Assembly: GCF_003967355.1 (NCBI RefSeq)
Contig: NZ_BIFH01000018.1
Span: forward strand, 124,001-188,000
Source: Embleya hyalina
Lineage (GTDB): Bacteria > Actinomycetota > Actinomycetes > Streptomycetales > Streptomycetaceae
Length of the DNA stretch: 64,000 nucleotides
Reading direction: 5' to 3'
The notes below the pieces were generated by a model. It did no database searches and had not been told where the DNA came from. It saw only the letters and a program-made list of their open reading frames with translations. The position numbers were made by a program, and so were the translations under genes. Shown here in pieces: positions 20,252-36,543 of this stretch. The number at the start of each line of letters is the position of its first letter. The stretch's first letter is position 1.

Positions 20252-20252
20252 C

Positions 20253-23200
20253 TCAGTACTCCACGTCCTGCGAGCGGCGGCGGATCACGGTGACCTCGTC
20301 GCGTTGGTTGCCGGTGGGGCCCAGATAGTTGAACGCCCAGCTCAGTTGCGCGTATCCGCCGATCAGATGGGTGGGCTTGAGGAGCACGCGGGTGAGCGTG
20401 TTGTGGATCCCGCCGCGCCGGCCGGTGCTCTGTGCCCTGGGGACCCCGACGGTGCGGTCCTGGGCGTGGTGCATGTAGACGGTGCCGGTGGGCATGCGGT
20501 GCGAGACCACCGCGCGGGCGGTGACCACGCCGTTGCGGTTGACCGCCTCGATCCAGTCGTTGTCGCGCACCCCGATCGCCCGCGCGTCGGCGGTGCTCAG
20601 CCAGATGGTCTGGCCGCCGCGCGAGAGGGAGAGCATGAGCAGGTTGTCCTGGTATTCGGAGTGGATCGACCACTTGTTGTGCGGGGTCAGGTAGCGGACC
20701 GTCACCTCGTGGGCGCCGTCCGGGCCGAGCACGGGCTCGCCGAACAGCCGGTGCATGTCCAGCGGCGGCCGGTACACCGGCAGCGCCTCGCCGAGTTCGT
20801 GCATCCAGTCGTGGTCGAGGAAGAAGTGCTGGCGGCCGGTGAGGGTGTGCCAGGGCTTGAGGTGTTCGGTGTTGAGGGTGAACGCGGTGTAGCGCCGACC
20901 GCCGGCCTCGCTGCCGGACCATTCCGGCGAGGTGATCACCGGCTCGGGCCGGGCCTGGGTGTCCGCGTAGCCGATCCGCCTGCCCTCGTGTTCGGCGGCC
21001 AGGTGCGCCATCGCCTGCCCGGTGCGCGCCTCGAGGGTACGGAAACCCTGAACGGCCAATCTGCCGTTGGTCGTTCCGGACAGCGCCAGGATCGTGTCGC
21101 AGGCCCGGACCGCGGTGTCGATCAGCGGCCGACCGGCGGCGACACCGGTGCGGGCGGTGCCGTTGAGCCGGCGCAGGTCCTCGACCTCGGCGCCCACGTC
21201 GAAGGCGATTCCCTTGACGGGCAGGCCCAACTGCTCGGCGAGCGGGCCCAGCGCGGCCATCTTGGCGGCGACGGCCGTGTAGTCGCGCTCGACCACGGTC
21301 AGGTTCGGCATGGTCCGGCCCGGCACCGGCGGGCAGTGGCCGGCCCGCCAGTCCGCCGCGATCCCGCCGGGTTGGGCGATCTCCCCGGGGGTGTCGTGTT
21401 GGAGGGCGGTGGCCACCAGGTCACGGCGGGTGTCCAGGTGCCCGCGCGCCAGTTCGCCGAACCGCGCCGCGATCGTGTGGAACGCCTCGAAGTCGGTACG
21501 GGCCTGCCACGGCGGGTCGATCGCGGGGGTGAACGCGTGTACGAAGGGGTGCATGTCGGTCGAGGACAGGTCGTGCTTCTCGTACCAGGTCGCGGCGGGC
21601 AGCACCACGTCGGACATCAGCGTGGTGGACGTCATCCGGAAGTCCAGCGACAGCAGCAGGTCGAGTTTGCCCTCCGGGGCCTGGTCGTGCCAGCGCACGC
21701 CCTGCGGGCGGGAGCCCGGCGGCGCCTCCTCGGCGCGCAGCGAACTGTCGGTGCCCAGAAGGTGTTTGGCGAAGTATTCGGCGCCCTTGGCGGAGGAGCC
21801 GAGCAGGTTGGAACGCCATACGGTGAGCACTCTCGGCCAGTTGTGCGGCGCGTCCGGGTCCTCGCACGCGAAGCCCAACGCGCCGGAGCGCAGCGCCTCG
21901 ACGGTGTGCTCGACCGGGTCGACGCCGGCGCGTTCGGCCTCGTCGACCAGGTCGAGCGGGTTGCGGTCGAAGGTGGGGTAGGAGGGCATCCAACCCAGTC
22001 GCGCCGAGGTGGCCAGGCAGTCGGCGGCGGTCGTCCCGGTCAGGTCGCCCGCGCCCAGCGGGGAGGCCAGGACGTCGGTGGTGAACCCGTCGTAGCGCCA
22101 CTGGTCGGTGTTCAGGTACCAGTAGGCCGTGCCGATCATCTGCCTCGGCGGCCGGGACCAGTCGTTGGCGCTCGCGAGGGTGGCCCACCCCGTGGCCGGC
22201 CGGCACTTCTCCTGGCCCACGTAGTGTGCCCAGCCGCCGCCGTTGCGGCCCTGGCAGCCGGTGAGTTGCAGCAGGGCCAGGAAGGTGCGGTAGATCGTCT
22301 CGGAGTGGAACCAGTGGTTGGTCCCGGCGCCCATCAGGATCATGCAGCGGCCCCCGGACCGCTCGGCGGTGTCGGCGAACTCCCGCGCGATCGCGACGGC
22401 GCGCGCGGCGGGCACCGAGGTCAGCGTCTCCTGCCAGGCGGGCGTGCCCGGTTGGGTCGCGTCGTCGTAGCCGACGGGCCACGTGCCGGGCAGGCCGTCG
22501 CGGGGTACCCCGTACTGGGCCAGAAGCAGGTCGAACACGGTGGTGACCAGCGGGCCGCCGGGGCCGAGGCGGCGGGCCGGCACCCCCCGGCGCAGCACCT
22601 CGCCGCGACCCTGACCGTGCTCGCCGCCCTCGGTGTCGAAGCGGGGCAGCAGGACCTCGACGCCGCGTGCGGTGGGGTCGCGGTACAGGGTGAGCCGGGG
22701 GCGGACGCCGGCCAGGTCGAGGTTCCAGCGGCCCCGGCCCGATTCGGTCCAGCGGAAGCCGATCGAGCCGCCGGGCACCACCGGCTCGCCCGTCGCGTCG
22801 TCGAGCAGGACCGTCTTCCAGTCCGCGCCCTCCTGGGTCGAGGCGGCCCCGTCGGCGGCGAGGTCGGCGGCGCGGACGAACTTGGCGGGGGTGTACGCGC
22901 CCGGCTCGTCCGCGCGTTCGGTCAGCGTGACCAGGAACGGCAGGTCGGTGAACTGCTTGACATAGGTGTCGAAGAACTCGACGGTCCGGTCGACGAAACA
23001 TTCCTTGAGGACCACGTGGCCCATCGCCATGGCCAGCGCGGCATCGGTGCCCGGGTGCGGGTGCAGCCATTCGTCGGCGAACTTCGCGTTGTCCGCGTAG
23101 TCCGGCGCGACCACCACCACCTTCTGCCCGCGGTAGCGCGCCTCGGCCATCCAGTGCGCGTCGGGCGTGCGGGTGACGGGCACGTTGGTGCCCCACATGA

Positions 23201-24014
23201 TCAGGTACGCCGCGTCCCACCAGTCGCCCGACTCGGGCACGTCGGTCTGGTCGCCGAACACCTGCGGGGAGGCCACCGGCAGGTCGGCGTACCAGTCGTA
23301 GAAGGACAACATCGGCGCGCCGATCAGGCTCATGAAGCGGGCGCCGGCCGCGTGCGAGACCATCGACATCGCCGGGATGGGGGAGAACCCGGCGATCCGG
23401 TCCGGTCCGTGGCGCGCGATGGTGTGCACATGCGCCGCGGCGACGATCTCCACCGCCTCGTCCCACGTGGCCCGGACCAGGCCGCCCCGGCCCCGGGCGC
23501 GTTGGTAGCGCCGCCGGCGCTCGGGGTCGGCGACCACGTCGGCCCAGGCCAGGACCGGGTCGCCCAGGCGTTGTCGGGCCTCGCGGTACAGCTCCAGGAG
23601 CACGCCGCGCACGTAGGGGTAGCGCACCCGGGTGGGTGAGTAGGTGTACCAGGAGAACGCGGCGCCGCGCGGGCAGCCGCGCGGTTCGTACTCGGGGCGA
23701 TCGGGTCCCACCGAGGGGTAGTCGGTGGCCTGGGTCTCCCAGGTGATCACGCCGTCCTTGACGTAGACCTTCCAGCGGCAGGAGCCGGTGCAGTTGACGC
23801 CGTGGGTGGAGGTGACGACCTTGTCGTGGCTCCAGCGCTCGCGGTAGAAGACGTCGCCCTGTCGGCCGCCCTTCAGGTATTGGGCGCGCAGGTCCGGCGA
23901 GACCACCGCGTCGCGGCGGAAGAAGCGCCCGGTACGCAGGAGCAGGTCGCTCGCGCGGCCGTCCAGGCCGGGGGCCGGGGGTGGGTCGGTGGGCGGGGGC
24001 GAACCGGTGTCCAT
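20253..24014 (-). CDS. narG: respiratory nitrate reductase alpha subunit NarG
   Basis: The 1253-residue protein is the molybdopterin catalytic subunit. It starts with the NarG leader region, then the FS0 cluster motif with His71, Cys75 and Cys79 (THGVNCTGSCRW) and a fourth Cys near ERGCPRG-like position 113. The molybdopterin domains follow (WGTNVPVTRTPDAHW, PDYADNAKFADEW, GAGTNHWFHSETIYR) and the C-terminal dinucleotide-binding domain ends at ITPEW/ISPEW-like and YLGPTGNQRDEV. It reduces nitrate to nitrite on the cytoplasmic face during anaerobic or microaerobic respiration. First gene of narGHJI; GAAGG precedes the ATG. No narK transporter or nitrate sensor lies next to it, and I see no FNR-like site in the 280-base upstream gap. 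Confidence 0.98.
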   Translation of the reverse strand: MDTGSPPPTDPPPAPGLDGRASDLLLRTGRFFRRDAVVSPDLRAQYLKGGRQGDVFYRERWSHDKVVTSTHGVNCTGSCRWKVYVKDGVITWETQATDYPSVGPDRPEYEPRGCPRGAAFSWYTYSPTRVRYPYVRGVLLELYREARQRLGDPVLAWADVVADPERRRRYQRARGRGGLVRATWDEAVEIVAAAHVHTIARHGPDRIAGFSPIPAMSMVSHAAGARFMSLIGAPMLSFYDWYADLPVASPQVFGDQTDVPESGDWWDAAYLIMWGTNVPVTRTPDAHWMAEARYRGQKVVVVAPDYADNAKFADEWLHPHPGTDAALAMAMGHVVLKECFVDRTVEFFDTYVKQFTDLPFLVTLTERADEPGAYTPAKFVRAADLAADGAASTQEGADWKTVLLDDATGEPVVPGGSIGFRWTESGRGRWNLDLAGVRPRLTLYRDPTARGVEVLLPRFDTEGGEHGQGRGEVLRRGVPARRLGPGGPLVTTVFDLLLAQYGVPRDGLPGTWPVGYDDATQPGTPAWQETLTSVPAARAVAIAREFADTAERSGGRCMILMGAGTNHWFHSETIYRTFLALLQLTGCQGRNGGGWAHYVGQEKCRPATGWATLASANDWSRPPRQMIGTAYWYLNTDQWRYDGFTTDVLASPLGAGDLTGTTAADCLATSARLGWMPSYPTFDRNPLDLVDEAERAGVDPVEHTVEALRSGALGFACEDPDAPHNWPRVLTVWRSNLLGSSAKGAEYFAKHLLGTDSSLRAEEAPPGSRPQGVRWHDQAPEGKLDLLLSLDFRMTSTTLMSDVVLPAATWYEKHDLSSTDMHPFVHAFTPAIDPPWQARTDFEAFHTIAARFGELARGHLDTRRDLVATALQHDTPGEIAQPGGIAADWRAGHCPPVPGRTMPNLTVVERDYTAVAAKMAALGPLAEQLGLPVKGIAFDVGAEVEDLRRLNGTARTGVAAGRPLIDTAVRACDTILALSGTTNGRLAVQGFRTLEARTGQAMAHLAAEHEGRRIGYADTQARPEPVITSPEWSGSEAGGRRYTAFTLNTEHLKPWHTLTGRQHFFLDHDWMHELGEALPVYRPPLDMHRLFGEPVLGPDGAHEVTVRYLTPHNKWSIHSEYQDNLLMLSLSRGGQTIWLSTADARAIGVRDNDWIEAVNRNGVVTARAVVSHRMPTGTVYMHHAQDRTVGVPRAQSTGRRGGIHNTLTRVLLKPTHLIGGYAQLSWAFNYLGPTGNQRDEVTVIRRRSQDVEY

Positions 24015-24294
24015 GACGACCCTTCGGGATGAGGCTCCGCATGCCGAGTTGCAGTAAATGTCCTATATGTAGGGCTTCGATGGTGGGACGCGGGTGCTCG
24101 GCTCACCGTGTCCGCCCGTCGGGACGTGTTGTTCGCGCGGACGTGGCGGATGATCAACCGGAACACGCCTCGGCGGATTCCTGCCCGCGATTGGGTGGCA
24201 GCGGCCCGATCCGCGTGGACCGGGCCGCATCGAGCAGGGTGCGTCCCATCCCCCGAACGATGGGCGCGCGCACCCGTTGAGGAGCTGAGAGCCC

Positions 24295-24888
24295 GTGTCA
24301 CCCATCCGTCGCCGCCCCGCGACCGCGCTCGCCCTGACCGCGCTGCTCGCGGCCGGACTCACCACGGCCGCACCCGTCGTGTGGGCCGCCCCGTCCGAGC
24401 CGACCGCCGCCGCACGGACCGGTGTTCCCGCCATCGACCTCGACCGCGCCGCCGCCGGCGACTTCGGCCCCTGCACCACCACGGTGCGCGGCGTGCTGAG
24501 CAAGCCGCTCACGATCGCGTCGGGCATCACCTGCCTGGACGGCGCCACGGTGCGGGGCCCGGTCCGGGTCGAGCCGGGCGCGGGCCTGATCGCCACCAGG
24601 TCGACCGTCACCGGCCCGGTCTCGGCACACGGCGCGACCGCCCTCGTCCTGGCCGACACCACGGTCGGCGGCCCCGTCACGGGCACCGACGCGATCGGCG
24701 TCACCGCACTCCTGTGGTCCCGCGTCGGCGGCCCCGTGCACCTGGCCGGAAACAAGGGCCCGAGCCAGGTGCTCGCCAACACCGTCGGCGGCCCGCTGAA
24801 CTGCGCGGGCAACACCCCCGAGCCGACGAACGCCGGCCTGCCGAACACGGTGAAGGGCCCGAAGTCCGGCCAGTGCGCGTCGCTGTAG
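24295..24888 (+). CDS. secreted protein with beta-helix-like repeats, unknown function
   Basis: The 197-residue product has a Sec signal peptide (to about residue 32, ending VWAAP) and a mature part made of short repeats of the type hydrophobic-x-GPV, such as ATVRGPVRVEPG, STVTGPVSAHG, TTVGGPVTGTD, SRVGGPVHLAG and NTVGGPLNCAG, spaced 20-25 residues. Such spacing suggests a small right-handed beta-helix or bactofilin-like solenoid on the cell surface. Two Cys pairs (PCTTT/ITCLD and LNCAG/GQCASL) may form disulfides. Start is a GTG with GAGGAG upstream. Divergent from narG; function not known. Confidence 0.7.
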   Translation: MSPIRRRPATALALTALLAAGLTTAAPVVWAAPSEPTAAARTGVPAIDLDRAAAGDFGPCTTTVRGVLSKPLTIASGITCLDGATVRGPVRVEPGAGLIATRSTVTGPVSAHGATALVLADTTVGGPVTGTDAIGVTALLWSRVGGPVHLAGNKGPSQVLANTVGGPLNCAGNTPEPTNAGLPNTVKGPKSGQCASL

Positions 24889-24924
24889 CGCCGCGGCGGC
24901 CACGCGCCGCACCGTGACCGACCG

Positions 24925-24961
24925 CGCCCCGTACGACCGCTCCCGGCGGCCGTACGGGGCG
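24925..24961. terminator. stem-loop between convergent genes
   Basis: CGCCCCGTACG (24925-24935) pairs perfectly with 24951-24961, leaving a 15-base loop. The right arm touches the stop codon of the caspase-like gene at 24962, and the left lies 37 bases after the stop of the secreted repeat protein, so it can stop both. Confidence 0.6.
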
Positions 24962-26362
24962 TCACCCGGCGGGTTCCAGGGGTGGCAGGGCGATGGTGGG
25001 GTCGCCCAGGAGGACCAGGCTTTGGCGGTCGAGGGCCGCCACGCGGAGTCTGGTGAGGGTTTCCCGGACCGAGGTGTCGCCGTTGGCCAGGGCGTCGCGC
25101 AGGCGGGCCCAGCGGGTGTGCAACTCGCCGACGTCGGCGCGGTATTCGGCCAGGGCCAGGCCCAAGGGCTCGCCCGCGTACAGGTGGCCGGACAGCGCGG
25201 AGACCAGGCGGCCGCCGAGACCCTGGCCGGTGTCGTCGACGCGCAGGGTCCAGCTGAAGGTCGGCTCCACGTGGCCGATCACGGCCCGCACCGGGTGTTC
25301 GCGACCGAGCAGTTCCAGCGGCGCCGGGGCCACCATCGTGCCCAGGCCCGCGACCGCCTCCACCGTGCCGAGCGCGGAGCTGCCGACCGGAAGCAGCCCG
25401 GCGTAGAAGCTCTCGCCGGCCGCACCGGCCGAGCAGCACGCCTGGGCGTACCACACACACCCACCCGGCATGCCGTCGCACAACGTGCGCAGCGGCACGG
25501 TGGTGTGCGTGGCGTCCACCGGCAGCCCGAGCATCGCGCGCATCTCGGCGGGAGCGTCCAGCGGACCGGTGCGGCCGTGACCGGAGGTGGCGAGCAGCCC
25601 GGGGCGGAGGTCGGCGAGGGCGCCCACGAGTGCGTCGCCGGTCGCCTCGGCCGCGGTGACGTCGCGGAATTCGGCGAGCGGGGGCGGGGTGAGCCGCGCC
25701 GCCAGCGGAGCGGCGATCACCGCGCGCATCAACGCCGTGATGTCCAGCGGACCGTGGTCGACCGTCCAGGTCACCGCCCGGTCGGTACGCGCCTCGGCGC
25801 CGGCCCAATCCGCGAGCAGCGCCCGGACGTAGTGGGCGAGCGCGTCCCCGGCCAGCGGGATGCGCCCGACCAGGTGCCTGGTGCCCAGCGCGTACTGCAC
25901 GGACCAGGGGATCACGTCGGGGCCGCCGATGATCGCCACGTACTTCGGGAGCCGGCCCCGCCCGGTCCCGAACTCCGACAGTCCGATGGCCGGTTCCTGG
26001 GGCGGGTCGGCGGCGAAGTACCGGCGCAGCAGGTGGTCGGGCAGCTCCGGACTCCAGCGCAACACCGCGGTGCCCGGCCGCGCCGCCAACAACTCGCGCA
26101 CCGGTGCGGCGGCGTCCTCGCCGGCCGCCTTCGCCGCGTCGGACACCTGCGGATCGGTGCTGTCCGGCAGCAGGATCCCGTAGCCGACGTCGGCCGAGCG
26201 CCAGTCCCTCGGGTCGGCCGGGGCCTCGAACGGAAGCACCGCCTGGGAGCGCGGCATGCCGCCTTTTCCGGCACCCCACGAGGCCGCGCCGGCGTCGATC
26301 GTGGCCCGCGCGACCTCCTCCCCGGTCCAGGCGTCGAGTTGGATGTCCGCCGGCAGCGTCAT
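24962..26362 (-). CDS. caspase-fold (C25/CHAT-like) cysteine peptidase
   Basis: The 466-residue protein has the two signatures of a caspase-haemoglobinase fold: a strand ending in the catalytic His (LLATSGHGRTGP, His262) and, about 47 residues later, a strand ending in the catalytic Cys (GCVWYAQACCSAGAAG, Cys309 or Cys310). A preceding strand YVAIIGGPDVIPW resembles gingipain/C25 peptidases. No signal peptide is seen, so it is likely cytoplasmic. It is the last gene of a four-gene set; its ATG overlaps the stop of the CHAT gene (ATGA at 26359-26362). I infer that it is an effector or processing peptidase triggered by its neighbours; the substrate is unknown. Confidence 0.75.
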   Translation of the reverse strand: MTLPADIQLDAWTGEEVARATIDAGAASWGAGKGGMPRSQAVLPFEAPADPRDWRSADVGYGILLPDSTDPQVSDAAKAAGEDAAAPVRELLAARPGTAVLRWSPELPDHLLRRYFAADPPQEPAIGLSEFGTGRGRLPKYVAIIGGPDVIPWSVQYALGTRHLVGRIPLAGDALAHYVRALLADWAGAEARTDRAVTWTVDHGPLDITALMRAVIAAPLAARLTPPPLAEFRDVTAAEATGDALVGALADLRPGLLATSGHGRTGPLDAPAEMRAMLGLPVDATHTTVPLRTLCDGMPGGCVWYAQACCSAGAAGESFYAGLLPVGSSALGTVEAVAGLGTMVAPAPLELLGREHPVRAVIGHVEPTFSWTLRVDDTGQGLGGRLVSALSGHLYAGEPLGLALAEYRADVGELHTRWARLRDALANGDTSVRETLTRLRVAALDRQSLVLLGDPTIALPPLEPAG

Positions 26363-27639
26363 CGGCCCGCACCCGCCAAGCGTGCCCGCAGATCGGCGAT
26401 CAACGCGTCCACCTGCGCCAACAGCGCCGGATCCGTGGTGACCGGATCCAGCGTCGCCCGGAAACGCTCGTGCGTGTCGAGCCGCCCCTGGAGGTTCGCC
26501 AACTCGGACGAATCCGCCGCCGAACTCGCCGCGATCCGCAGCGGGTCGTCCTGGAGGTAGAGCACGGGGTCCGACCACGCCTCGCTCTCGTCCGGATCGT
26601 CCCGGGCCAGCGCCTGGCGCGGGGCGGTGAAGGTGGCCGCCCAGTCGATCTCGTGCTCGCCCGGGTCCTCCAGCGTGCCGCGGACGGTGGCGAGCACCTC
26701 CGGATACAGCGCCGCGCAGAATCGATCCGTGTCGTTCAGGTCGACCAGCCTGCGCATGCCCGCGACCGCCGGCAACCCCTGCGAGACGAGGTCGTGGGCG
26801 AGCGAGAGCGTGTCGGACGTCTGCGCCGTCCGACACGCGCCCAGGACCACCAGCCACGGCGCGCACGGGATCAACGCGACCACCAGGTCCGGCAGTTTCA
26901 ACTGCACCGAGCCCACGGGCTCCCCCGCGTCGAAGTCCGCCGTGTGGGCGAAGGCGAGCGTTCGCACACCGCCGGCCGCGCCACCGTGACACAGCAGGTG
27001 CACCAGGTGCGGCTTGGCCGCGGTGATCCGCTTGGCCAACTCCGGCGCGGTACCCGGGAGCACGTCGGCGGTGACGTCGGGGCGGCCGGCCGCCGCGACG
27101 CGGTCGAGCACGGCCCGCTCGGCGCTGATCACATGCAGCCGGGTGTCCAGCGCCCGCGCGTCGGGCAGCGCGCCGGCCGCGAGCAGCGCGTCGAGTTGGG
27201 ACACGCCGGTGCGCCCCGCCGCGGACAGGACGGCGACGATGCGCAGCGGTGGGGTGAACGTGCGGCGATCGACGGGGCTGCGGATCGCGGCGATGCGCAC
27301 GATCGGCCAGCGCGCGTCGAGCGCGATGAACCCCTGCGCCGCGGAGTGGAGTTGTTCCCAGGGCAGCCGGTCGGCCAGGTTCGAGACCATGTGCAGGTAC
27401 AGCGGAGTCGGTCCGGCGGCGGGCGGCCGGGCGAGGGCGGCGCTCAGGCCCTGGCTGACCGCCGGGTGCCGGCACAGCCGTTTCAGCAGCGCCTCGCCCC
27501 GGCCGGCGACGGTGCCGCCGGGATCGGAGACGTCGGTGACCCGATTGGCGCCGAGCCCCGGGATGTTGGCGGGCGCCTCGCGCAGTTTGAGCACGGTGCG
27601 CTCGTCCCCCAGCGGTTCGAAGCCGAGCACGGTGCGCAT
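26359..27639 (-). CDS. CHAT-domain (caspase-like) peptidase
   Basis: The 426-residue protein carries a CHAT domain at about residues 75-330: LHMVSNLADRLPWEQLH (the early ...PWE.L. motif), the catalytic His218 in HLVHLLCHGG, and the catalytic Cys269 in LVVLGACRTAQTSD, followed by SLAHDLVSQGLPAVAGMRR, the usual region after the active Cys. The C-terminal 60 residues are helical and charged. CHAT proteins are caspase relatives often found in toxin or defence modules and as proteases activated by a partner. It overlaps the upstream pseudo-CHAT gene by one base (TGATG) and the downstream peptidase gene by four, so three caspase-fold proteins are made in fixed proportion. Confidence 0.85.
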   Translation of the reverse strand: MRTVLGFEPLGDERTVLKLREAPANIPGLGANRVTDVSDPGGTVAGRGEALLKRLCRHPAVSQGLSAALARPPAAGPTPLYLHMVSNLADRLPWEQLHSAAQGFIALDARWPIVRIAAIRSPVDRRTFTPPLRIVAVLSAAGRTGVSQLDALLAAGALPDARALDTRLHVISAERAVLDRVAAAGRPDVTADVLPGTAPELAKRITAAKPHLVHLLCHGGAAGGVRTLAFAHTADFDAGEPVGSVQLKLPDLVVALIPCAPWLVVLGACRTAQTSDTLSLAHDLVSQGLPAVAGMRRLVDLNDTDRFCAALYPEVLATVRGTLEDPGEHEIDWAATFTAPRQALARDDPDESEAWSDPVLYLQDDPLRIAASSAADSSELANLQGRLDTHERFRATLDPVTTDPALLAQVDALIADLRARLAGAGR

Positions 27640-29096
27640 CACGTCTCCCGGATACGTTCGTCGACGAGCGCGCGCAACTCGGCGATGGCCTGGCCGACTC
27701 CCAGGTCGTACGCCTGCTTGGCGGCCGGGGTCTCGCCGGGGACGCCGGCGGTGCGGACCAGCGACGCCACCTGGTTCTCGATGTAGCGCGTGGAGGAGGC
27801 GACCCACATCGGCACCGAGTCGGCGTTCGCGTAGCGCGCGGTGATCTCGTCGCCGCCGGCCATGCCGAGCGCGTGCGGCAGGACCTCGGTGCTGCTCCTC
27901 GAATCCGCGATCGGCGCCCGCCCGCTGAGCCAGGACATCCCGGGCGCCTCCGGATCGGGCCAGGCGTCGCGGAGCGCGGCGCCGACGAACTCGGGCTGGA
28001 GGTGCACGAACAGCGACGGGTCGCGCGGGATCGGCACGGTGCCCGGTTCGCCGGCGATGAACGCGTGCGCCTGGGCCAACGCGTATCCGGCGGGATCCCG
28101 CGCCACCGAGCTGTAGAACGTCGGCCCGGCACGGCGCAGACCGATGTGGTCGGCCATCATGCGGATCGCCGAGTCGCACGGATTGTCCGGCGGTGAACCG
28201 AGGGACAGCACGGTCGCCCCGACGCGGTCGGCGAGGCGTCGTACCCGGTCGGCGGTGACGAACGCGCGGGTGGACCGGTCGGTGCCCGTCGCGGGATCGG
28301 GGTTCACCGACAGCACCGGTCGGATGCCGTCGAACGTGCCGTCGGTGACGATGTGCAGCGCTCGCACCGCCTTGCCGTCGAGTCCGCCGGCGATCCAATT
28401 GCCCCACAGCGGCGGTCCGGTGGCCGGGCCCGGGCCATCGGGTCGCGGCGGTCCGGACCGGGCGTAGCGCCGTGCGCCGTCGGGGTCGTGGACGTGGATC
28501 AGGTCTCCGTCGCGCCCGGTCGACAACAGCGCCCGCAACGCCTGTTCGCCGCCCCGCTCGGTGAATACGTGTACGTCCACCCGGCCCGCGACGCAGGCGC
28601 GAAGGGAGGCCACGAACGCCGAGAGGTATCCGGCCACCCACGGCGCGTCCGGCGCGGTGGACAGCGCGACCGCCACGGTCCACATCCGTCCCGGATCGGA
28701 TCCGGGCGGCAGGCGATCGGGCACCCGGACCAGCGGCCGACCCGCGGCCGCGACGAGGGCGCCCTCCCACGGCACCCCGCCCAGGTGGCCGTAGGGCGGG
28801 ACCAGCCGCAACCAGAGCGCGGTATCCGCCGGGAACTCGGCGCTCAGGCAGCCCACGACGCCCTCGACCAGATCGTCCGGCACGGTCGGGTCGCACGGGG
28901 GTTCGACACCTTCCGAGAGCCCGAATCCGCCGTAGTCGAAGTCGCCCCGCCAGTACGTCCTCGGGCCCTTCGGCGTCGGGCCCTCCGGGGGGAAGCCGAG
29001 CAGTTCGACCGTCGCGATCGGCGACGCGCGCCCGAGGTCGAGCCGCACCCGAAGCATCGCCAAGTGCCATTTCTCGACCGGGGCCTCGGACATCAC
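27639..29096 (-). CDS. CHAT-like protein lacking the catalytic pair
   Basis: The 485-residue protein follows the CHAT pattern: WLRLVPPYGHLGGVPWEGALV corresponds to the early PWE motif, GDLIHVHDPDG (residues 197-207) to the strand that normally ends in CHG, and GATVLSLGSPPDNP (about 293-306) to the strand that normally ends in the catalytic Cys. At the last position there is Gly/Leu instead of Cys, and the His strand ends in Asp-Pro-Asp-Gly. I therefore read it as a dead CHAT paralogue, perhaps an inhibitor or sensor for its active neighbour, as pseudo-caspases are elsewhere. The similarity is by eye and needs a profile search. The start at 29096 (ATG ATG) lies 75 bases after the hydrolase stop. 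Confidence 0.7.
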   Translation of the reverse strand: MMSEAPVEKWHLAMLRVRLDLGRASPIATVELLGFPPEGPTPKGPRTYWRGDFDYGGFGLSEGVEPPCDPTVPDDLVEGVVGCLSAEFPADTALWLRLVPPYGHLGGVPWEGALVAAAGRPLVRVPDRLPPGSDPGRMWTVAVALSTAPDAPWVAGYLSAFVASLRACVAGRVDVHVFTERGGEQALRALLSTGRDGDLIHVHDPDGARRYARSGPPRPDGPGPATGPPLWGNWIAGGLDGKAVRALHIVTDGTFDGIRPVLSVNPDPATGTDRSTRAFVTADRVRRLADRVGATVLSLGSPPDNPCDSAIRMMADHIGLRRAGPTFYSSVARDPAGYALAQAHAFIAGEPGTVPIPRDPSLFVHLQPEFVGAALRDAWPDPEAPGMSWLSGRAPIADSRSSTEVLPHALGMAGGDEITARYANADSVPMWVASSTRYIENQVASLVRTAGVPGETPAAKQAYDLGVGQAIAELRALVDERIRET

Positions 29097-29171
29097 GACT
29101 CCTTCGATGCGGGCGGCGAAACCGCGGCTTCCCGGCGATTCGGGCCGCGGCGGGTCGGCGGATCCGGTTCC

Positions 29172-30506
29172 TCAGCCCGGTCCGGCCAGGGCGTGCATGG
29201 CCCACCAGGTCGCCGGATTGCTGACGTCGCCGTGTCCGGAGATGGCGGGATTCCCGTCGATCTCGACCCCGCCGTCGACGGCGATCACCCGAAGGCCGCC
29301 GCCGAGGTCGTAGTGCTCCGAACCGGGTACGGCGGCGGATCGCCGGGTGGAGACGGCGTCGACCCCGGCGGGGCCGAACCCGCCCAGTGCGCCGTACAGT
29401 TCCGGATCGCCGATCGCGGCCACACCCGGTTCGCCCAGTTGACCGCCGCGCATCGCGAGATGAAAGAACCGGGTCAGCGGATCGTCGAACGCGGAGAACG
29501 TGGTGAGCAGGGGCCGGTCCACCAGGTCGAGGGCGGCGTGGTAGCCGCCGGAGCGGCCGGTGCCGGCGACGTCGGCCGCGAAGCACCAGCGGTTGACGGC
29601 CGCCTGGAGCAGCAACATCGACCGGGCGGGCCGGGTCGGCGCGGCGGCCACGAGCGCCGACAAGACGACCTTCGCGCCGAACGAGTGGCCGATCAGATGC
29701 AGCCGCACCGCGCTCTCACGCAGGATGTGCGCGACGAGCGGGCCCACCCCCTTGGCGCCCACGTCACCCGCACGGGCCTTCATCGTCCACACCGTCGCGG
29801 TCCGCAGCAGGCTGCGCGGATCGAAGCCGCCGCCCGCGACCAGCAGCCCCGGCGTGGTGGGGTGCGCGACGCCGAAATCGTCCGGGGCGGCCGGTGGGGC
29901 CGCGGCTCCGCCGCCGTCCAACGCCGCCCAGACGCCCAGGAATTCCTCGGCGGTGGGTGGCGGTGAGCCGTCGTCCGGGTCGCGCCCGGCGCGCAGCGAG
30001 TCGAGCACGATCTCGGCGGCGCGTCGCGCGTCGGCGGCGTCGATCGTGGTGCGGCCGTCCACCAACTCGACGAACTCCGGGTCGGATTCGGCCTTCAGGG
30101 CGCCGGTGACCAGCCCGAACATCTCCTCGACCTGCCGGGCTCCGGCACCGTCGGGATCCGGCTCGGCGGCGATGTCGGGGCCGGCCTCCCACGGCATGAC
30201 GAAGCTCGTGGAGGGCCAGATGACGCCGATCAGCAGCGGTTTGTAGTCCGGCGGGAGCGGGAGGGCGAACTGCCGCCGCTGCTCGATGAACCCGTTGACG
30301 AAGCTGCGATAGCGGTCGAGGGCCTGCGCGAACACGTTGTTCCAGCCGTGCGAGAACAGGAAGACGTCGCTCACCCCGGCGAGCCGGTCCTTGATCTCCT
30401 GTTCGGCGACCGGGCTGCGCAGTCCTCCGTCGCGGTCGTAGCGGAGCAGGTAGAGATCCGCCGTCGAGCCCCCTTCGAGCGGAAACTGTTGAAAAGGACC
30501 AGACAT
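29172..30506 (-). CDS. alpha/beta hydrolase, first gene of the CHAT operon
   Basis: The 444-residue protein has an alpha/beta-hydrolase frame: an oxyanion-type strand VFLFSHGWNN at residues 48-57, the strand LLIGVIWPS, and the nucleophile elbow LHLIGHSFGAK with Ser275, followed much later by a possible acid and by His residues near AISGHGD. The long insert between oxyanion strand and elbow (Asp/Glu- and Pro-rich, residues 110-230) is unusual. It lacks a signal peptide. It is 75 bases upstream of the pseudo-CHAT gene on the same strand and most likely co-transcribed. It could be a lipase-type effector cleaving membrane lipids when the CHAT peptidase is active; that is inference. The ATG at 30506 has GGAG about 9 bases upstream. 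Confidence 0.75.
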   Translation of the reverse strand: MSGPFQQFPLEGGSTADLYLLRYDRDGGLRSPVAEQEIKDRLAGVSDVFLFSHGWNNVFAQALDRYRSFVNGFIEQRRQFALPLPPDYKPLLIGVIWPSTSFVMPWEAGPDIAAEPDPDGAGARQVEEMFGLVTGALKAESDPEFVELVDGRTTIDAADARRAAEIVLDSLRAGRDPDDGSPPPTAEEFLGVWAALDGGGAAAPPAAPDDFGVAHPTTPGLLVAGGGFDPRSLLRTATVWTMKARAGDVGAKGVGPLVAHILRESAVRLHLIGHSFGAKVVLSALVAAAPTRPARSMLLLQAAVNRWCFAADVAGTGRSGGYHAALDLVDRPLLTTFSAFDDPLTRFFHLAMRGGQLGEPGVAAIGDPELYGALGGFGPAGVDAVSTRRSAAVPGSEHYDLGGGLRVIAVDGGVEIDGNPAISGHGDVSNPATWWAMHALAGPG

Positions 30507-30733
30507 CGTCCGGCTCCATGTTCGTGCGACAACGGCGCTCCGTACGAGTGCGGAGCGATCCTGCTTCCATGCTTCCCCTCCCTCCGGACCGGGGCAAGCG
30601 GGGGCGGGCCGGTGCGGTCGGGCGGGTGCGGCCGGGGCGCGGCCGTCGGGGCGGACCGGGTCGGGGCCGGGCGCCCGGGGACGGCGGGGGCGAGTCGGGT
30701 CGGGTGGTGCCGCCCGGCCGGGTTCGGGCCGGG

Positions 30734-31732
30734 TCAGCCCGTGTCGCGGGTCAGGAGTCCGGTCGCCTGTGCCTGCACGGTGCCGTTCGGGAAGGCGGTG
30801 TAGTAGTCGTACTTGAGCTTGTTGCCCGGGACCCTGTCGAGCACGACCCAGCCGCCGCGCGCGCACCGCTGCCCCGGATCGCGGACGATGTCCTCGCGCA
30901 GGACGACCCGGTCGGCGCGGACGGCGGCGCGGTCCTCGGTCTCCAGGGTCAGGGTTCCGGAGCAGTTGCCGCCGGGGTAGTCCGACTCGCCGACGACGGT
31001 TCCGGCCTTGCCCACGTGCAGTCGCAGGGTGACGGTGAAGGTGGCGGTACCGACGGCGCTCCCGCGCCAACGCGCGGCGAAGTCGGCCGGCAGTCGGCGG
31101 GTGGTCGGCTGCGCGGTCGGGCGCGGGCTCGTGCTCGTGCTCCTGCTCGGCCCGGAGCCGGTGGGCGGCGGACCGTCGGGCGGCCTCGTGGTGGTCGACC
31201 GGGCGCTCGGACGGGTGCTCGCGCTCGCGTCGGTGCCCGGATTCGTTCCCGGGCTCGCGCCGCCGTCCGGGGAATCGATCGTGATGGTGGTGCCCGGGTC
31301 GGCCTCGAGCAGCACCCGCCCCGGCGAGAACTCCTGGACAACCCGGCCCTCCAGCGTCACCCGCAGCCCCTTCGCGGCGGCCACCCGGTAGACGTCCTCC
31401 TTGACCCGGCCGTCCTCGCGATGCCGGATCACCACGACGAGTTCGTTGCCGGCGGTCGCGGCCTTCCTCGAGTAGTCGACGCCGCCGTCGACGCTGAACG
31501 TGCCCGCCGGGGTGACCCAGCGCGCCCCGAGCGACACGGAGATCTTCCCGCGCGTCGAGATGGAGAACCTGATCGGCCCGATGGCGTAGCCGAGCACCGG
31601 GTCGTCGAGACCCGCCTTCCGCTCGCCGTCCTCGTCGAATCCCAGGTAGCCGCACGACGTGGCGCCGAACAACGCCATCACCGTGCATACCGTGACCAGT
31701 CCCGCCCGTGTCCCGACCCGCCGCACCCGCAT
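30734..31732 (-). CDS. putative lipoprotein with Ser/Thr/Pro-rich linker, unknown function
   Basis: The 332-residue product has a lipoprotein signal (RVGTRAGLVTVCTVMALFG, lipobox GATSC with Cys27). The mature part has a first all-beta domain (about residues 45-150, with GRISVSLG-like strands), a linker of Ser, Thr and Pro (residues 155-215), and a second domain starting RWRGSAVGTATFTVTLRLH that resembles the extracellular C-terminal domains of some Streptomyces Ser/Thr kinases and related envelope proteins. I do not know its role. GGGAGG lies 6-7 bases before the ATG at 31732. It is upstream of the CHAT operon on the same strand, but 227 bases separate them, so it is probably a separate unit. 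Confidence 0.75.
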   Translation of the reverse strand: MRVRRVGTRAGLVTVCTVMALFGATSCGYLGFDEDGERKAGLDDPVLGYAIGPIRFSISTRGKISVSLGARWVTPAGTFSVDGGVDYSRKAATAGNELVVVIRHREDGRVKEDVYRVAAAKGLRVTLEGRVVQEFSPGRVLLEADPGTTITIDSPDGGASPGTNPGTDASASTRPSARSTTTRPPDGPPPTGSGPSRSTSTSPRPTAQPTTRRLPADFAARWRGSAVGTATFTVTLRLHVGKAGTVVGESDYPGGNCSGTLTLETEDRAAVRADRVVLREDIVRDPGQRCARGGWVVLDRVPGNKLKYDYYTAFPNGTVQAQATGLLTRDTG

Positions 31733-31823
31733 CGCGTTCCTCCCCCGAGAACACCCGCCGTGGAGACGAGTATGCGCCCGAAATCGGCCGAACGTGCGGA
31801 AACCGCCTCGGTGGGGGCACGCG

Positions 31824-31858
31824 GGTGTCGCCCGGCGGGGAATCCGCCGGGCGACACC
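31824..31858. terminator. strong stem-loop downstream of the chitinase
   Basis: GGTGTCGCCCGGCGG (31824-31838) pairs perfectly with 31844-31858, leaving the 5-base loop GGAAT. It starts 26 bases after the chitinase stop on the minus strand and should end that transcript before the lipoprotein gene. Confidence 0.75.
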
Positions 31859-31883
31859 GTTCATCCGTGCGTTCGGGCCGGTC

Positions 31884-33401
31884 TCAGCAGGCGCCGAGGT
31901 CCTGCCAGACGCCCCACTGGCCGGTGGTGCCGGGCGTCTCGCCGGTCGTCCACCACTTGGCCTTCCAGGTGTGGCCCTGGTACGAGACCTGTTGTCCGCC
32001 GGTGTAGACCGTGCCGGAGGCCCACGGCGGGGCCGTGCACTGGTGGCCGTTGCCGCCGGTGATGGTGAGCGTGTAGCTCGCCGAGTGGCTGACGGACGTG
32101 CCGACGCCGGTCACCGTCAGGGTGTACGTACCCGAGACGGCCGCCGTCGTCGTGGTGATGGCCAGCGTCGAACTGCCGCCCGCCGTCACCGATGTCGGAC
32201 TGAGCGAGACCGAGACGCCGGTCGGGGCGCCGGAGACGGTGAGGTTCACCGTCTGCGCCGAACCCGCCGTCACCGAGGTGTTCACCGTGCTGGTGGTCGA
32301 GTTGCCCGCGGCGACCGTTCCGGAGGCGGGCGTCGTCTGTACCGCGAAGTCGTCGGTCGGGGTCGTCGTGCCGCTGGTGAACGGCGCGAAGACGTGGCTG
32401 AAGTCCCACTGGTTGCCCGGGATCCCCGAGCAACTGTCGGAGGAGGCACCGCAGTTGCCGCGGTCCCGCTGGAGCGCCCAGAAGGAGAGCGTGTTGATGC
32501 CCTTCGACACCGCCCAGTTGTACACCTGCTTGGCGTTGGCCAGGGTGAACGTCTCGGCCGCGCCGAAGTCGTCGATGCCGGGCATCTCGGTGACGCCGAT
32601 CATGCCCCAGAGCTGCGTGGGGGTCTTGCCCGGGTAGAGCTGCGCGAGGGTGTTGTACAGGCCCTGCGCGGCCGTCTCGGTGTCGTCGGCCATGTTGTGC
32701 GTGGCGTTGTCGTAGTAGTCGAACGTCATCAGGTTGACCACGTCGACCCGCGTGCCGTTGCTCACCGCGTTGCGCAGCAGCGCCACGCTGTTCTCGGCGA
32801 GGCCGTGGGTGGTGGTGGGCAGCGTGTAGGAGATCTCGATCTTGCGCCCGTTGGCCGCGGCCCAGTCCTGGACCAGCTTGATCGCCTTGTTGCGGCGGTC
32901 GATGCCGGCCGTCTTGTCGAGCGCGTCGACCTCGATGTCCATGTCGAGGCGGGAGATGTCGTAGGTCGTGATGACCTTCTTGTACACCTCGGCGATCTGG
33001 TTGACGTCGGTGCAGCTGTCCGCGATCTCGGTGTTCGTGGTGTCCGCGGTGTAGCCGCCGAAGGAGGGGATCACGTCCCCGCCTCGGCCCTGGATCGTCT
33101 TGATGTCGGCGCCGAACGTGGACTGGGCGATCGGCATGCCGGTGTCGCCGTTCCAGTACGCCGTGCAGGAGCCCGAGGTGGCGGTCTGCAGGAATGCCAT
33201 GGTCAGGTGCTTCGCGCCCGACTGGGCGGACAGCGCGGCCGGGCTGTCTCCGGTCCACGCCTCGAAGTAGGGGGCGAAGACGTGCGCGGGCAGGGGAGTC
33301 GCGGCCTGGGCGGGGCCGGCTCCGAAGGCGGTGAGGCTCACCGCCGCGGCGGCGGTGACGGTGGCGGCGACGGCCGCTCGTAACGTACGGAGGAGTCGCA
33401 T
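31884..33401 (-). CDS. secreted GH18 chitinase with carbohydrate-binding module
   Basis: The 505-residue product has a Sec signal peptide (to about residue 33, ending GPAQAAT), then a GH18 barrel with the catalytic motif SRLDMDIEVD in the DxxDxDxE pattern, and VVNLMTFDYYDN as the later active-site strand. From about residue 355 there is a Ser/Thr-rich stretch and a beta-sandwich module (residues 360-450), and the last 50 residues are a CBM5/12 chitin-binding module (PPWASGTVYTGGQQVSYQGH, then KWWTTGETPG). It degrades chitin outside the cell. Two DasR-like sites lie 97-124 bases upstream, so expression should respond to glucosamine phosphates as for other Streptomyces chitinases. Confidence 0.93.
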   Translation of the reverse strand: MRLLRTLRAAVAATVTAAAAVSLTAFGAGPAQAATPLPAHVFAPYFEAWTGDSPAALSAQSGAKHLTMAFLQTATSGSCTAYWNGDTGMPIAQSTFGADIKTIQGRGGDVIPSFGGYTADTTNTEIADSCTDVNQIAEVYKKVITTYDISRLDMDIEVDALDKTAGIDRRNKAIKLVQDWAAANGRKIEISYTLPTTTHGLAENSVALLRNAVSNGTRVDVVNLMTFDYYDNATHNMADDTETAAQGLYNTLAQLYPGKTPTQLWGMIGVTEMPGIDDFGAAETFTLANAKQVYNWAVSKGINTLSFWALQRDRGNCGASSDSCSGIPGNQWDFSHVFAPFTSGTTTPTDDFAVQTTPASGTVAAGNSTTSTVNTSVTAGSAQTVNLTVSGAPTGVSVSLSPTSVTAGGSSTLAITTTTAAVSGTYTLTVTGVGTSVSHSASYTLTITGGNGHQCTAPPWASGTVYTGGQQVSYQGHTWKAKWWTTGETPGTTGQWGVWQDLGAC

Positions 33402-33497
33402 GTGCGTGCGTCCAGACTGTGAGAGGGGACGGACCGCCGTCGCTTCGCGTGGCTCGGCGGCATCGGTATGAGATAGCTCACGCGGTATCCAAGTCAA

Positions 33498-33525
33498 TGG
33501 TCTGGACCAAAAATGGACTAGACCA
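33498..33525. promoter_or_regulatory. two DasR-responsive-element-like sites
   Basis: TGGTCTGGACCA (33498-33509) and TGGACTAGACCA (33514-33525) each differ by one base from the DasR core TGGTCTAGACCA known from Streptomyces chitinase and N-acetylglucosamine genes. Their starts are 16 bases apart. The pair lies about 100 bases upstream of the chitinase start, at the place expected for its promoter. A local A+T-rich flank (AAAAATGG, CCATTTTT) supports a promoter here. Confidence 0.7.
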
Positions 33526-33775
33526 TTTTTGCGAGCCGCGACGCCCCGCCCCTGGCCGGACCCGTTTCGGGGCGGCCGACCACTCGCGTGGGCAATGTTC
33601 GCCAACCCTTTTGTCGCGGGCGCCGGCAGGCCCGGCCGGGTCCCGGTGCGCGCTTGTCGTCGCCGTTGGCGAGGCCGGTGTGTGCCATGAGGGGCGACTC
33701 GCGTCCCGCCGTGGTCACCTTTGGGTTCCTCGGGCACCGGAAAGTGCGTTCTTCCAGGTCAGCGTTCGCTCTCCT
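33526..33775. other. intergenic region between chitinase and RidA genes
   Basis: The full gap from the chitinase start to the RidA start is 418 bases. Apart from the DasR-like sites and a dyad at 33776-33794 I see no gene and no further repeat. A short open frame on the minus strand has no ribosome site or domain. Confidence 0.45.
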
Positions 33776-33794
33776 ATGGTTTCCGAGTAACCAT
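33776..33794. promoter_or_regulatory. inverted repeat ATGGTT-N7-AACCAT upstream of RidA
   Basis: ATGGTT at 33776-33781 and AACCAT at 33789-33794 form a dyad that ends 25 bases upstream of the RidA ATG, next to the ribosome site GGAGG. It could be a repressor site or a small hairpin near the transcript start. Confidence 0.3.
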
Positions 33795-33819
33795 CGGAGA
33801 CCACTACGGAGGTAGCGCC

Positions 33820-34227
33820 ATGGCCGTCACCCTCACGAACCCCGCCGGACTACCGGAGATCGACGTGTATCGGCAGGTGTCGGTCGGCACCGGGTCGAAG
33901 CTGGTCTTCCTCGCCGGGCAGGTGGCCTGGGACGCCGACGGAGTCACGGTCGGCGAGGGCGATCTCGCCGCCCAGGTCGAACAGTGCTACCGCAACGTCG
34001 GCACCGCCCTGGCCGGTGTCGGCGCGACCTTCGACGACGTCGCCAAGCTCACCGTGCACGTGGTCGACTGGACGCCCGACAAGATGCCGCAACTCCTCGA
34101 CGGCATCGCCCGCGCCGCCGCCGCGCTGGGTGTCACGCCGGTGGCCCCGGCCACCCTCCTGGGCGTCGCCGCCCTGGACGTTCCCGCCCATCTGGTCGAG
34201 GTGGAGGCCATCGCGATCCTGGACTGA
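33820..34227 (+). CDS. RidA-family protein
   Basis: The 135-residue product has the RidA (YjgF/YER057c) fold: a strand LVFLAGQVAWDADG, the helix LAAQVEQCYRNVGTALAGVGATFDDVAKLTVHVVDW in order, and the closing VAPATLLGVAALDVPAHLVEVEAIA. The Arg of classical RidA (usually in an ...NRIR.. or R at the end of the last strands) is not clear here, so it may belong to a subgroup that does not hydrolyse 2-aminoacrylate. The ATG at 33820 has GGAGG 8 bases upstream. A 36-base palindrome lies directly after its stop. Confidence 0.92.
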   Translation: MAVTLTNPAGLPEIDVYRQVSVGTGSKLVFLAGQVAWDADGVTVGEGDLAAQVEQCYRNVGTALAGVGATFDDVAKLTVHVVDWTPDKMPQLLDGIARAAAALGVTPVAPATLLGVAALDVPAHLVEVEAIAILD

Positions 34228-34239
34228 ACCGACTTCCCC

Positions 34240-34275
34240 GAACTCCTTGTCCACCGATCGGTGGACAAGGAGTTC
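34240..34275. promoter_or_regulatory. perfect 36-base palindrome between RidA and MMPL genes
   Basis: The sequence is exactly self-complementary; the left half is GAACTCCTTGTCCACCGA and the right half is its complement. It begins 12 bases after the RidA stop and ends 49 bases before the MMPL ATG. It could be a terminator of RidA (no T-tract) or, since the core ACCGATCGGT and outer TTGTCCACC resemble TetR-type operators, a control site for the exporter. No TetR gene is adjacent. Confidence 0.6.
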
Positions 34276-34324
34276 CGTCGGTCGAGGCTGTCGAGCCAAC
34301 CGGCCCGACGAACAGGATTCGGAC

Positions 34325-36538
34325 ATGACGAAACTTCCTGTTCGAGTGGCCGGGTGGAGTGCTCGGCGTCCCTGGTGGGCGATCGCCGGCTGGGTGCTGT
34401 TTGTCGCGTTGTGCCTGGGGGCCGGCATCGCCGCCGGGACGAACACGGCCACCAGCGAGGACTATCGGGTGGGCGAGGCAGGGCGCGGGGAAGCGCTGGC
34501 CGCCCAGGGCGGCCTGGAGCAGCGCCCGATGGAGCGGGTGCTGATCACCGCCGAGGCCGGCGCGGAACGAGTGGGCCCCGAGGCGGACGCCGCGGCCGCC
34601 GAGATCGCGGACCGGATGCGGCGACTGCCCGAGGTGTCGTCGGTCGGCGCGCCGGTGCGCTCGGCCGACGGCAGGGCGCTGCGCGTCGACGTCACGATGA
34701 AGGGCGAGGAACAGGACGGGAAGAAGCACGTCGACCCGCTCCTGGCGCAGACCGCGAAGGTGCGGGCGGAACACCCGAAGCTGCGGATCGCGGAGAGCGG
34801 CGGCCCCTCGATCAGCAAGGACGTCCAGGGCCAACGCGGCGACGACCTCGCCAAGACCGAGATGATCGCCCTGCCGATCACGCTGATCACCCTGTTCATC
34901 GTGTTCCGCTCGGCGGCGATGGCCGCCGTGCCGCTGGTGCTCGCGCTGTCCGCGATCGCGGCGGCCGTCGGCCTGTCCATGCTCGCGTCGCACGTCTTCC
35001 CGGACGCCGGGGTCGGCACCAACGTGATCCTGCTGATCGGCCTGGCCGTCGGCGTCGACTACGCGCTCTTCTACCTCAAGCGCGAACGCGAGGAACGGGC
35101 CCGCTCGGGCGGGCGGCTCGACTCCCGAGCCCTGGTCGAACTGGCCGCCGCCACCTCCGGACACGCCGTCGTGGTCTCCGGGCTCGCGGTCGCCGCCTCC
35201 AGCGCGACGCTGTTCCTCGCCGACGACGTGATCTTCTCCTCGATCGCCCTCGGCGCGATCGTGGTCACGGTGGTCGCGGTGATCGGCTCGTTGACCGCGC
35301 TGCCCGCGCTGCTGGTCAAGCTCGGTGCCCGGGCCGAACGCCGCGCCGCCGCCAGGGCCGAGCGCGCGGCCCGCCGGGGCAAGCCGGTCGCCGCGAAGCC
35401 CGCGCGCAGTGGTGCCGGCCGGATCACCTCCGCCGTGTTGCGGGTCACCGCCGCCCGCCCGGCCGCGACGCTCGCCGTCTCCGTGTTCGCCATGCTGGCC
35501 CTGGCCGCCCCGCTCGCGCACCTGAAGCTGACCGACATCGGCCGCGAGACCTACTCCAGGGACCTGCCCGCCATGGACACCTGGCATCGGCAGAACGAGG
35601 CGTTCCCGGAGCTGAAGTCGATGCACCAGGTCGTGGTCCGCGCCGACGCCGGCCGGGCCGACGAGGTGGCCGGCGCGCTGCGCGAGCTGGAACGGCGGGC
35701 CGAGACCGACCCGGCGCTCTCCGGCATCGCCGAACTGCGCACCTCGCCCGACCGCCGGATCACCATGCTGGAGCTGCGCGTACCGCACTTCGTCAGCACC
35801 GACGCGGCGCAGGACTCGCTCGATCGGGTCCGCGACGACCACGTACCGGCCACGGTCGGCCGGCTGCGCGGGGTCGACGTGGCGGTCACCGGCGACGTGG
35901 CCCGCTACGCGGACTATCCCGAACACCAGAAGACCAGGCTGCCGATGATCGTCACGTCACTGCTCCTGGTGACCTTCGTGATCACCGTGATCGCGTTCGG
36001 CTCGGTGGTCCTGGGCCTGCTCGGCATGCTGCTCAACCTGCTGTCGGCCGGCGCCGCGCTCGGGCTGCTCGTCCTGGTCTTCCAGGGGAGTTGGGCCGAG
36101 GGGCTGCTCGACTTCGACTCGACCGGTTCGATCGGCTCCAGGGTGCCGCTGTTCCTGTTCGTGATCCTGTTCGGATTGTCCATGGACTACCAGGTGTTCG
36201 TGATCAGTCGGATCCGCGAGGCCGTGCGGCGCGGGGCGACGACCCGGCGGGCCGTACTCGACGGGATCGGCAACTCGGCGGGCGTGGTCACCAGCGCCGC
36301 GTTCGTGATGGTCACCGTGTTCGCCAGTTTCATCGGCCTGCACCTGATCGAGATGAAGCAGTTCGGCTTCAGCCTCGCGGTGGCCGTGCTCCTGGACGCG
36401 TTCGTGATCCGGATCATGATCCTGCCCGCCGCCATGCTGCTGCTGGGCGAGCGCAGCTGGTGGCCGGCGATCGGGCTGCGCCGGAGCCGCGAGCGCACCC
36501 CCTCCGCCGAGGTTCGACCGGTCCGAAACGTAGGCTGA
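34325..36538 (+). CDS. MMPL/RND-family transporter
   Basis: The 737-residue membrane protein has the two-half RND layout of actinobacterial MMPL proteins: helix 1 at residues 17-37, an extracytoplasmic loop to about residue 180, helices 2-6 (about 182-335), a charged Ala/Arg-rich cytoplasmic loop, helix 7 near residue 385, the second extracytoplasmic loop, and helices 8-12 (about 540-710). The conserved GLAVGVDYALFYLKR and LFGLSMDYQVFVISR segments carry the acidic and Tyr residues of the proton path. It probably exports a lipid or drug using the proton gradient. It is followed after 5 bases by a histidine kinase and a response regulator, which may control it. Confidence 0.95.
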   Translation: MTKLPVRVAGWSARRPWWAIAGWVLFVALCLGAGIAAGTNTATSEDYRVGEAGRGEALAAQGGLEQRPMERVLITAEAGAERVGPEADAAAAEIADRMRRLPEVSSVGAPVRSADGRALRVDVTMKGEEQDGKKHVDPLLAQTAKVRAEHPKLRIAESGGPSISKDVQGQRGDDLAKTEMIALPITLITLFIVFRSAAMAAVPLVLALSAIAAAVGLSMLASHVFPDAGVGTNVILLIGLAVGVDYALFYLKREREERARSGGRLDSRALVELAAATSGHAVVVSGLAVAASSATLFLADDVIFSSIALGAIVVTVVAVIGSLTALPALLVKLGARAERRAAARAERAARRGKPVAAKPARSGAGRITSAVLRVTAARPAATLAVSVFAMLALAAPLAHLKLTDIGRETYSRDLPAMDTWHRQNEAFPELKSMHQVVVRADAGRADEVAGALRELERRAETDPALSGIAELRTSPDRRITMLELRVPHFVSTDAAQDSLDRVRDDHVPATVGRLRGVDVAVTGDVARYADYPEHQKTRLPMIVTSLLLVTFVITVIAFGSVVLGLLGMLLNLLSAGAALGLLVLVFQGSWAEGLLDFDSTGSIGSRVPLFLFVILFGLSMDYQVFVISRIREAVRRGATTRRAVLDGIGNSAGVVTSAAFVMVTVFASFIGLHLIEMKQFGFSLAVAVLLDAFVIRIMILPAAMLLLGERSWWPAIGLRRSRERTPSAEVRPVRNVG

Positions 36539-36543
36539 GCGCC

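Follow-up and report, generated by a model that had tools for sequence, protein, structure and literature searches.

What an alpha/beta hydrolase and three protease-like proteins, one of them without catalytic residues, might do together is the question raised by a run of four genes in Embleya hyalina, found on the minus strand of a 64,000-nucleotide (nt) stretch of contig NZ_BIFH01000018.1, which was analysed as a whole and is called here the window. An initial annotation, made from the letters of the sequence, had placed the run at 24962-30506, with the hydrolase gene first and with overlaps of 1 and 4 bases, and this layout is correct in every respect. The alpha/beta hydrolase (ABH; 29172..30506, 444 amino acids, aa) is followed by a degenerate CHAT homologue (pseudo-CHAT; 27639..29093, 484 aa), a CHAT protease (26359..27639, 426 aa) and a gingipain-like, C25-related cysteine protease (24962..26362, 466 aa). 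All four genes are co-directional; those for pseudo-CHAT and CHAT overlap by 1 nt (27639), those for CHAT and the C25-like protease by 4 nt (26359-26362).

The quartet is one unit, held together more than by chance, as judged from 14 ordered loci and from purifying selection on its genes. The reading proposed here, to which we give an even chance, is that this cassette may be a self-contained, horizontally moving effector module under protease control, acting as a cell-death or defence switch.

A conserved four-gene unit

A pattern scan of genome contigs with the 466-aa protein returned five loci, all with the four genes in order, from Embleya scabrispora (L004), Streptomyces (L005, L006, L007) and Mycobacterium pinniadriaticum (L008). 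A profile of the same protein found matches in 4 of 396 phylum-sample and 8 of 394 family-sample genomes; all four genes are present in each of the seven genomes with a full-length match, window genome included. The remaining matches are two variants (G602, G311), a genome with cassette fragments only (G615) and a weak match (G211, E=6.8e-4; locus L033), which was dropped, a cassette match being absent there. The pseudo-CHAT profile hit three genomes in a class sample of 394, one of them new and likewise with all four genes. Plasmid searches added Bradyrhizobium barranii (a conjugative plasmid), Gemmobacter fulvus and two Embleya records.

Altogether, 14 complete loci share the same gene order (window, L004, L005, L006, L008, L025, L027, L028, L029, L087, L088, L097, L098, L114), spread over Embleya, Streptomyces, Mycobacterium, further actinobacteria and two alphaproteobacterial plasmids. 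The counts are given without a second Bradyrhizobium barranii plasmid (H4) and without two duplicates, L010/G001, assigned to the species of L004 on account of agreeing identities, and L026/G524, identical in sequence to L006. L007 is a broken copy: a transposase gene with integrase-core domains (L007:6205-7308) lies inside its pseudo-CHAT gene, and its CHAT matches are split over two frames. The conserved linkage, for which the initial annotation had proposed a neighbourhood survey, is therefore borne out.

All four genes evolve under purifying selection, with omega values between 0.16 and 0.42 in 20 comparisons (a simple Nei-Gojobori count over five pairs of loci). The 13-row alignments used below were built without L007, where two genes are broken, and without L114, a later addition.

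Intact and degenerate proteases

Among the four window proteins, only the 426-aa one is above a Pfam cut-off (PF12770, CHAT; E=1.4e-11, 44.8 bits against a cut-off of 24). An NCBIfam scan of the four gave nothing above its cut-offs, and PADLOC a single weak match, SAVED_CHAT (E=0.0097), covering the CHAT part only, in agreement with the earlier view that no named system fits. In these four proteins, no MoxR, vWA or SAVED domain was found by Pfam, nor an NLR-like ATPase or gasdermin by Pfam or PADLOC. Compared with solved structures, the CHAT profile matched only a CHAT-domain protein (E=0.085) and an arginine repressor (E=0.55), and the single CHAT protein two superoxide dismutases (E about 0.07); the ABH and C25-like profiles matched no solved-structure sequence up to E=1. 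The CHAT dyad, His218/Cys269, is invariant in 13 of 13 copies, as expected from the initial annotation.

The pseudo-CHAT protein, from the window or from five orthologues, gave no Pfam family at E values up to 5. When 13-row profiles were compared by hhalign, it aligned with CHAT at a probability of 64% and a score of 45.3; control scores were 15.2 on average and 21.3 at most for 100 column-shuffled profiles, 17.5 for the reversed profile and 17.2 against ABH. By this profile-profile comparison only, pseudo-CHAT is a CHAT homologue. In the alignment, His218 of CHAT corresponds to Asp251 and Cys269 to Pro301, and none of 13 rows has His or Cys at these columns, so that both catalytic residues are lost: the initial annotation was right that one of the proteins had lost its Cys, but the His is gone as well. 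The omega of pseudo-CHAT, 0.31-0.42, indicates purifying selection and therefore a maintained protein, a probable regulator or sensor.

In the last protein, His262/Cys309, also predicted earlier, are invariant in 13 of 13 copies. Its 13-row profile matches annotated C25 peptidases of Nostoc (1.6e-36), Planktothrix (1.3e-28) and Sinorhizobium (1.4e-26; E values), as well as two unannotated relatives, L030 and L032. Of these five outside relatives, all but L032 score above the Pfam C25 cut-off; the window protein has no match to PF01364 (C25), and neither has any of six cassette members, so the cassette proteins are called C25-like. SHG and ACxxxG-type motifs were aligned in 8 of 8 rows with C25 relatives, and the dyad in the five outside relatives. 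Cys310 is invariant in the 13 cassette copies but not in those five, and Cys309 is therefore the likely nucleophile. A comparison of the pseudo-CHAT and C25-like 13-row profiles (score 27.1, E=0.02) is not counted as evidence of homology, and we make no claim that CHAT and the last protein are homologous in sequence. Of the three caspase-fold proteins described initially, CHAT is thus supported by Pfam and pseudo-CHAT by its profile, while the last is gingipain-like and not plainly a caspase. Since neither the 484-aa nor the 466-aa protein has a Pfam match, their caspase-type assignment comes from profile comparisons, and for all three proteins the putative caspase-type fold is supported by sequence only.

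The hydrolase and its partners

The gene preceding the proteases, described earlier as lipase-like, fits that description. Its product carries a GHSFG motif, and Ser275, Asp341 and His425, together with His53 of an HGW motif, are invariant in 13 of 13 copies. Ser275-Asp341-His425 is the predicted triad, Asp and His being assigned by conservation and position; residue conservation thus yields the Ser nucleophile elbow, Asp/Glu and His of an alpha/beta hydrolase. The Pfam match, to the DUF900 alpha/beta-hydrolase family, is below cut-off (E=0.0039).

The ABH profile matched in 18 of 296 phylum-sample genomes. From these and from plasmids, 25 distant ABH loci were collected, 17 chromosomal (L067-L083) and 8 plasmid-borne (L089-L096); the weakly matching genomes G159, G114 and G108 were left out, and 12 of 25 plasmid records were taken, four being cassettes and eight belonging to the distant loci. 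A protease gene directly adjoins ABH in 14 of the 25. In 11 it encodes an S8 subtilase, directly upstream (L067, L068, L069, L070, L072, L073, L090, L091, L093, L094, L096), an assignment made with an S8 profile built from eight loci that it later matched, with independent Pfam S8 assignments in six and record annotations in three. In the other three, it encodes C25 and/or CHAT (Nostoc L089, Planktothrix L092, Sinorhizobium L095). The ABH family therefore exchanges its protease partners: the common feature of the S8-ABH pairs is an ABH gene directly downstream of a protease, and the subtilase replaces the CHAT/C25 trio of the cassette. L082 has an S8 gene, but four genes away from ABH. At L072:5519-12035, three further genes come after those for the subtilase and ABH: a small one, one for a caspase (PF00656) and one with a uracil-DNA-glycosylase domain.

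In a 35-row ABH tree, drawn without L074, L080, L081 and L083 although these count among the 25 loci, the 13 rows from cassettes cluster together (100/100), and their cluster pairs with four C25-linked rows (95/87), apart from the S8-linked and Streptomyces-family rows.

CHAT, C25-like and ABH proteins of the same families as in the cassette also meet at loci with STAND NTPases. G602 (L030:7608-14030) has CHAT-SIR2, nSTAND1, C25-like and ABH in one run; in Nostoc (L089/L099), ABH and C25 occur with two CHAT-nSTAND1-WD40 proteins; Planktothrix (L100) combines ABH and CHAT-nSTAND1 with a transposase, a WD40 protein and C25. The window cassette, in contrast, has a dead CHAT in place of the NTPases. 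An nSTAND1 partner acting in trans was considered and rejected: the sole strong gene of the window genome (G000:C13:586739-587902, 413 bits) is unlinked to the cassette, and weaker matches carry no information, being obtained in 13 of 14 control genomes as well. At L032:1335-4463, by reading of the sequence, a C25-like gene faces a hydrolase gene, and the contig ends with a CHAT-like fragment; we take the hydrolase to be LCAT-like.

Two intact proteases are present in each cassette, and the effector arm could accordingly consist of CHAT and the C25-like protease, which would cleave proteins of the host or of a phage, with ABH as a substrate-processing or regulatory partner and the dead CHAT as an inhibitor. 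The arrangement at L032, where the C25-like relative adjoins the LCAT-like hydrolase and the CHAT-like fragment and not ABH, is in favour of this alternative. We nevertheless consider it unlikely, as catalytic residues are retained in the ABH family and its members are found, at different places of the tree, next to S8, C25 or CHAT proteins, which are proteases unrelated to one another; a shared effector would be expected to behave in this way. ABH is thus the probable effector.

Mobility and genomic surroundings

In blastn comparisons with the window, matching blocks span 24918-30610 in L004, 24984-30608 in L098, and 24990-28427 plus 28478-30610 in L097. The rest of window 15000-42000 is unmatched in the three, save a 256-nt patch (72.7%) shared with L098; DNA similarity to the three other Embleya loci thus ends essentially at the cassette borders, and the blocks common to them give 24918..30610 (minus strand) as the extent of the mobile unit. 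A whole-record search of NBC_00888 found four places matching window 19000-38000, and pieces of the flanks may therefore lie elsewhere in that record.

Contig C31 of the window genome (G000; L034, about 9689-10425) holds a second, older and decayed copy of the 466-aa gene, of which a frameshifted end is left. Its identity is 87.7% with L004, 86.8% with L098 and 81.8% with the window copy, and its neighbouring sequence is common with L004/L098. Being closer to these two, and sharing their neighbours, the remnant marks the intact window copy as a separate lineage at another site.

Directly 3' of the last stop codon, a hairpin at 24925..24961 (minus strand) is a probable operon terminator. The region 24915-24965 folds at -35.9 kcal/mol (z=-3.6), and none of 200 shuffles was equally stable; the hairpin has no T-run and for this reason was not listed by the terminator scan. 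A nitrate reductase operon (window 17140-24014, minus strand), recognized by similarity to an annotated alpha subunit and narH, lies directly downstream.

The initial annotation had suggested a survey for co-occurrence near defence genes, and here the outcome was negative. Of 10 neighbour proteins taken from six cassette loci, eight had no PADLOC match, and the two matched ones look generic (LuxR-type and ABC-type ATPase); the window copy sits beside the nitrate reductase operon. A defence-island location was consequently rejected, the neighbours tested by PADLOC looking ordinary.

The lack of a defence island among these neighbours would also suit a developmental or stress proteolysis operon of mycelial actinomycetes, serving cell lysis or lipid turnover and not defence; many hosts are indeed mycelial actinomycetes, and seven Streptomyces-family loci have an ABH paralogue in conserved synteny. 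Such a role is difficult to reconcile with a cassette so rare and patchy, as the counts of its last protein indicate (4/396 phylum and 8/394 family genomes), with copies on conjugative and other plasmids of Alphaproteobacteria, with flanks that differ among Embleya and with the decayed remnant in the window genome, and we rate it as improbable. Competition between elements, such as plasmid addiction or exclusion, in place of phage defence would agree with the plasmid copies, one typed as conjugative, and with the mobile borders, but an antitoxin-like small gene is absent from the cassette and the majority of copies are on chromosomal or unassigned contigs, so that we hold it to be very improbable.

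Discussion

The proposal of a protease-controlled death or defence switch draws on the protein families, on mobility and on a published pairing of caspases with alpha/beta hydrolases, from which a defence role is inferred. The earlier suggestion of a conflict or defence module stands in kind, given this pairing and the relatives beside nSTAND1/SIR2, but not as regards enrichment of defence genes.

The pairing is described for MoxR-vWA conflict systems, where a caspase occurs with an adjacent alpha/beta hydrolase and the caspase domains in effector position are mostly inactive (PMC7159879). The MoxR-vWA-VMAP ternary systems of the same source resemble the cassette in joining a caspase-superfamily protease to an adjacent alpha/beta-hydrolase gene, many of the caspase domains being inactive; the cassette differs in being without MoxR, vWA and VMAP and in adding a C25-like protease. 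The terms gingipain, C25 and CHAT do not occur in the text of the article (PMC7159879). In Hachiman, AVAST and canu, proteases including a caspase activate pro-nucleases (PMC12799240). As in the canu caspase-nuclease and the Hachiman/AVAST pairs, protease genes in the cassette would accompany the gene of an enzyme that is activated by proteolysis; here, however, the candidate effector is an alpha/beta hydrolase instead of an MBL-type nuclease, and CHAT and C25-like enzymes take the part of the protease. A similar logic of protease and effector is seen in CARD-NLR systems, for example LypABC (PMC13236601), whereas their NLR-like ATPase, CARD, trypsin-like peptidase and endonuclease were not detected in the cassette. 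Published work describing a cassette of CHAT, C25 and alpha/beta hydrolase was not found, in a search mostly without subscription papers and preprints.

Several results weigh against the switch proposed here. Apart from the ordinary neighbourhoods, 13-row profiles revealed no similarity between CHAT and the C25-like protease; with 5 to 8 rows per profile no connection emerged among pseudo-CHAT, CHAT and the C25-like protein, the pseudo-CHAT/CHAT comparison being negative at five rows, and the pseudo-CHAT hidden Markov model matched none of 15 related proteins. The AlphaFold models are poor, both for the C25-like protein (pLDDT 37.2, pTM 0.26) and for pseudo-CHAT (pLDDT 57.2); compared with PDB folds, the latter has no caspase near the top, caspase-4 being found at rank 46 (E=0.08). 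As to the hydrolase, no protease adjoins it in 11 of the 25 distant loci, so ABH can work without one; seven of these loci represent one syntenic Streptomyces-family paralogue (L071, L074-L079). A gating insertion special to the cassette ABH and removed by protease had to be rejected, as the stretch from HGW to GHSxG, about 210-255 residues long, has the same spacing in this paralogue. PDB fold matches of the pseudo-CHAT model to a pilin and to malyl-CoA lyase, of low TM-score, were discarded.

For activation, cleavage and outcome in the proposed switch, we infer the following scheme. Inactive caspase paralogues pair with active ones in animals, and the dead CHAT would likewise pair with the active CHAT, caspase-8 and cFLIP being, in our own comparison, the animal analogue of the live protease and its inactive paralogue. 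The dead CHAT would hold or sense the trigger and would thereby stand in for the STAND NTPase that, in the relatives, is fused with CHAT or linked to it. Infection or another stress would release CHAT, which, directly or via the C25-like protease, would switch on the lipase-like ABH; this, in turn, may damage membranes or another ester-containing substrate, and the cell would be killed or arrested. The order of the cascade and the ABH substrate are guesses. In its most specific form, which we put forward tentatively and regard as rather improbable, the cassette would be an NTPase-free death switch. The dead CHAT would respond to the trigger and control its live paralogue, which, by way of the gingipain-type protease, would set the lipase free; such a protease cascade would have two steps and carry its own inactive paralogue.

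If the scheme is true, the cassette would offer a small self-contained system for the control of a live protease by a pseudo-protease in bacterial immunity. Three protease classes (CHAT, C25 and S8) would be tied to one lipase-like partner family, suggesting that proteolytic activation of hydrolases may be a theme wider than the published nuclease cases.

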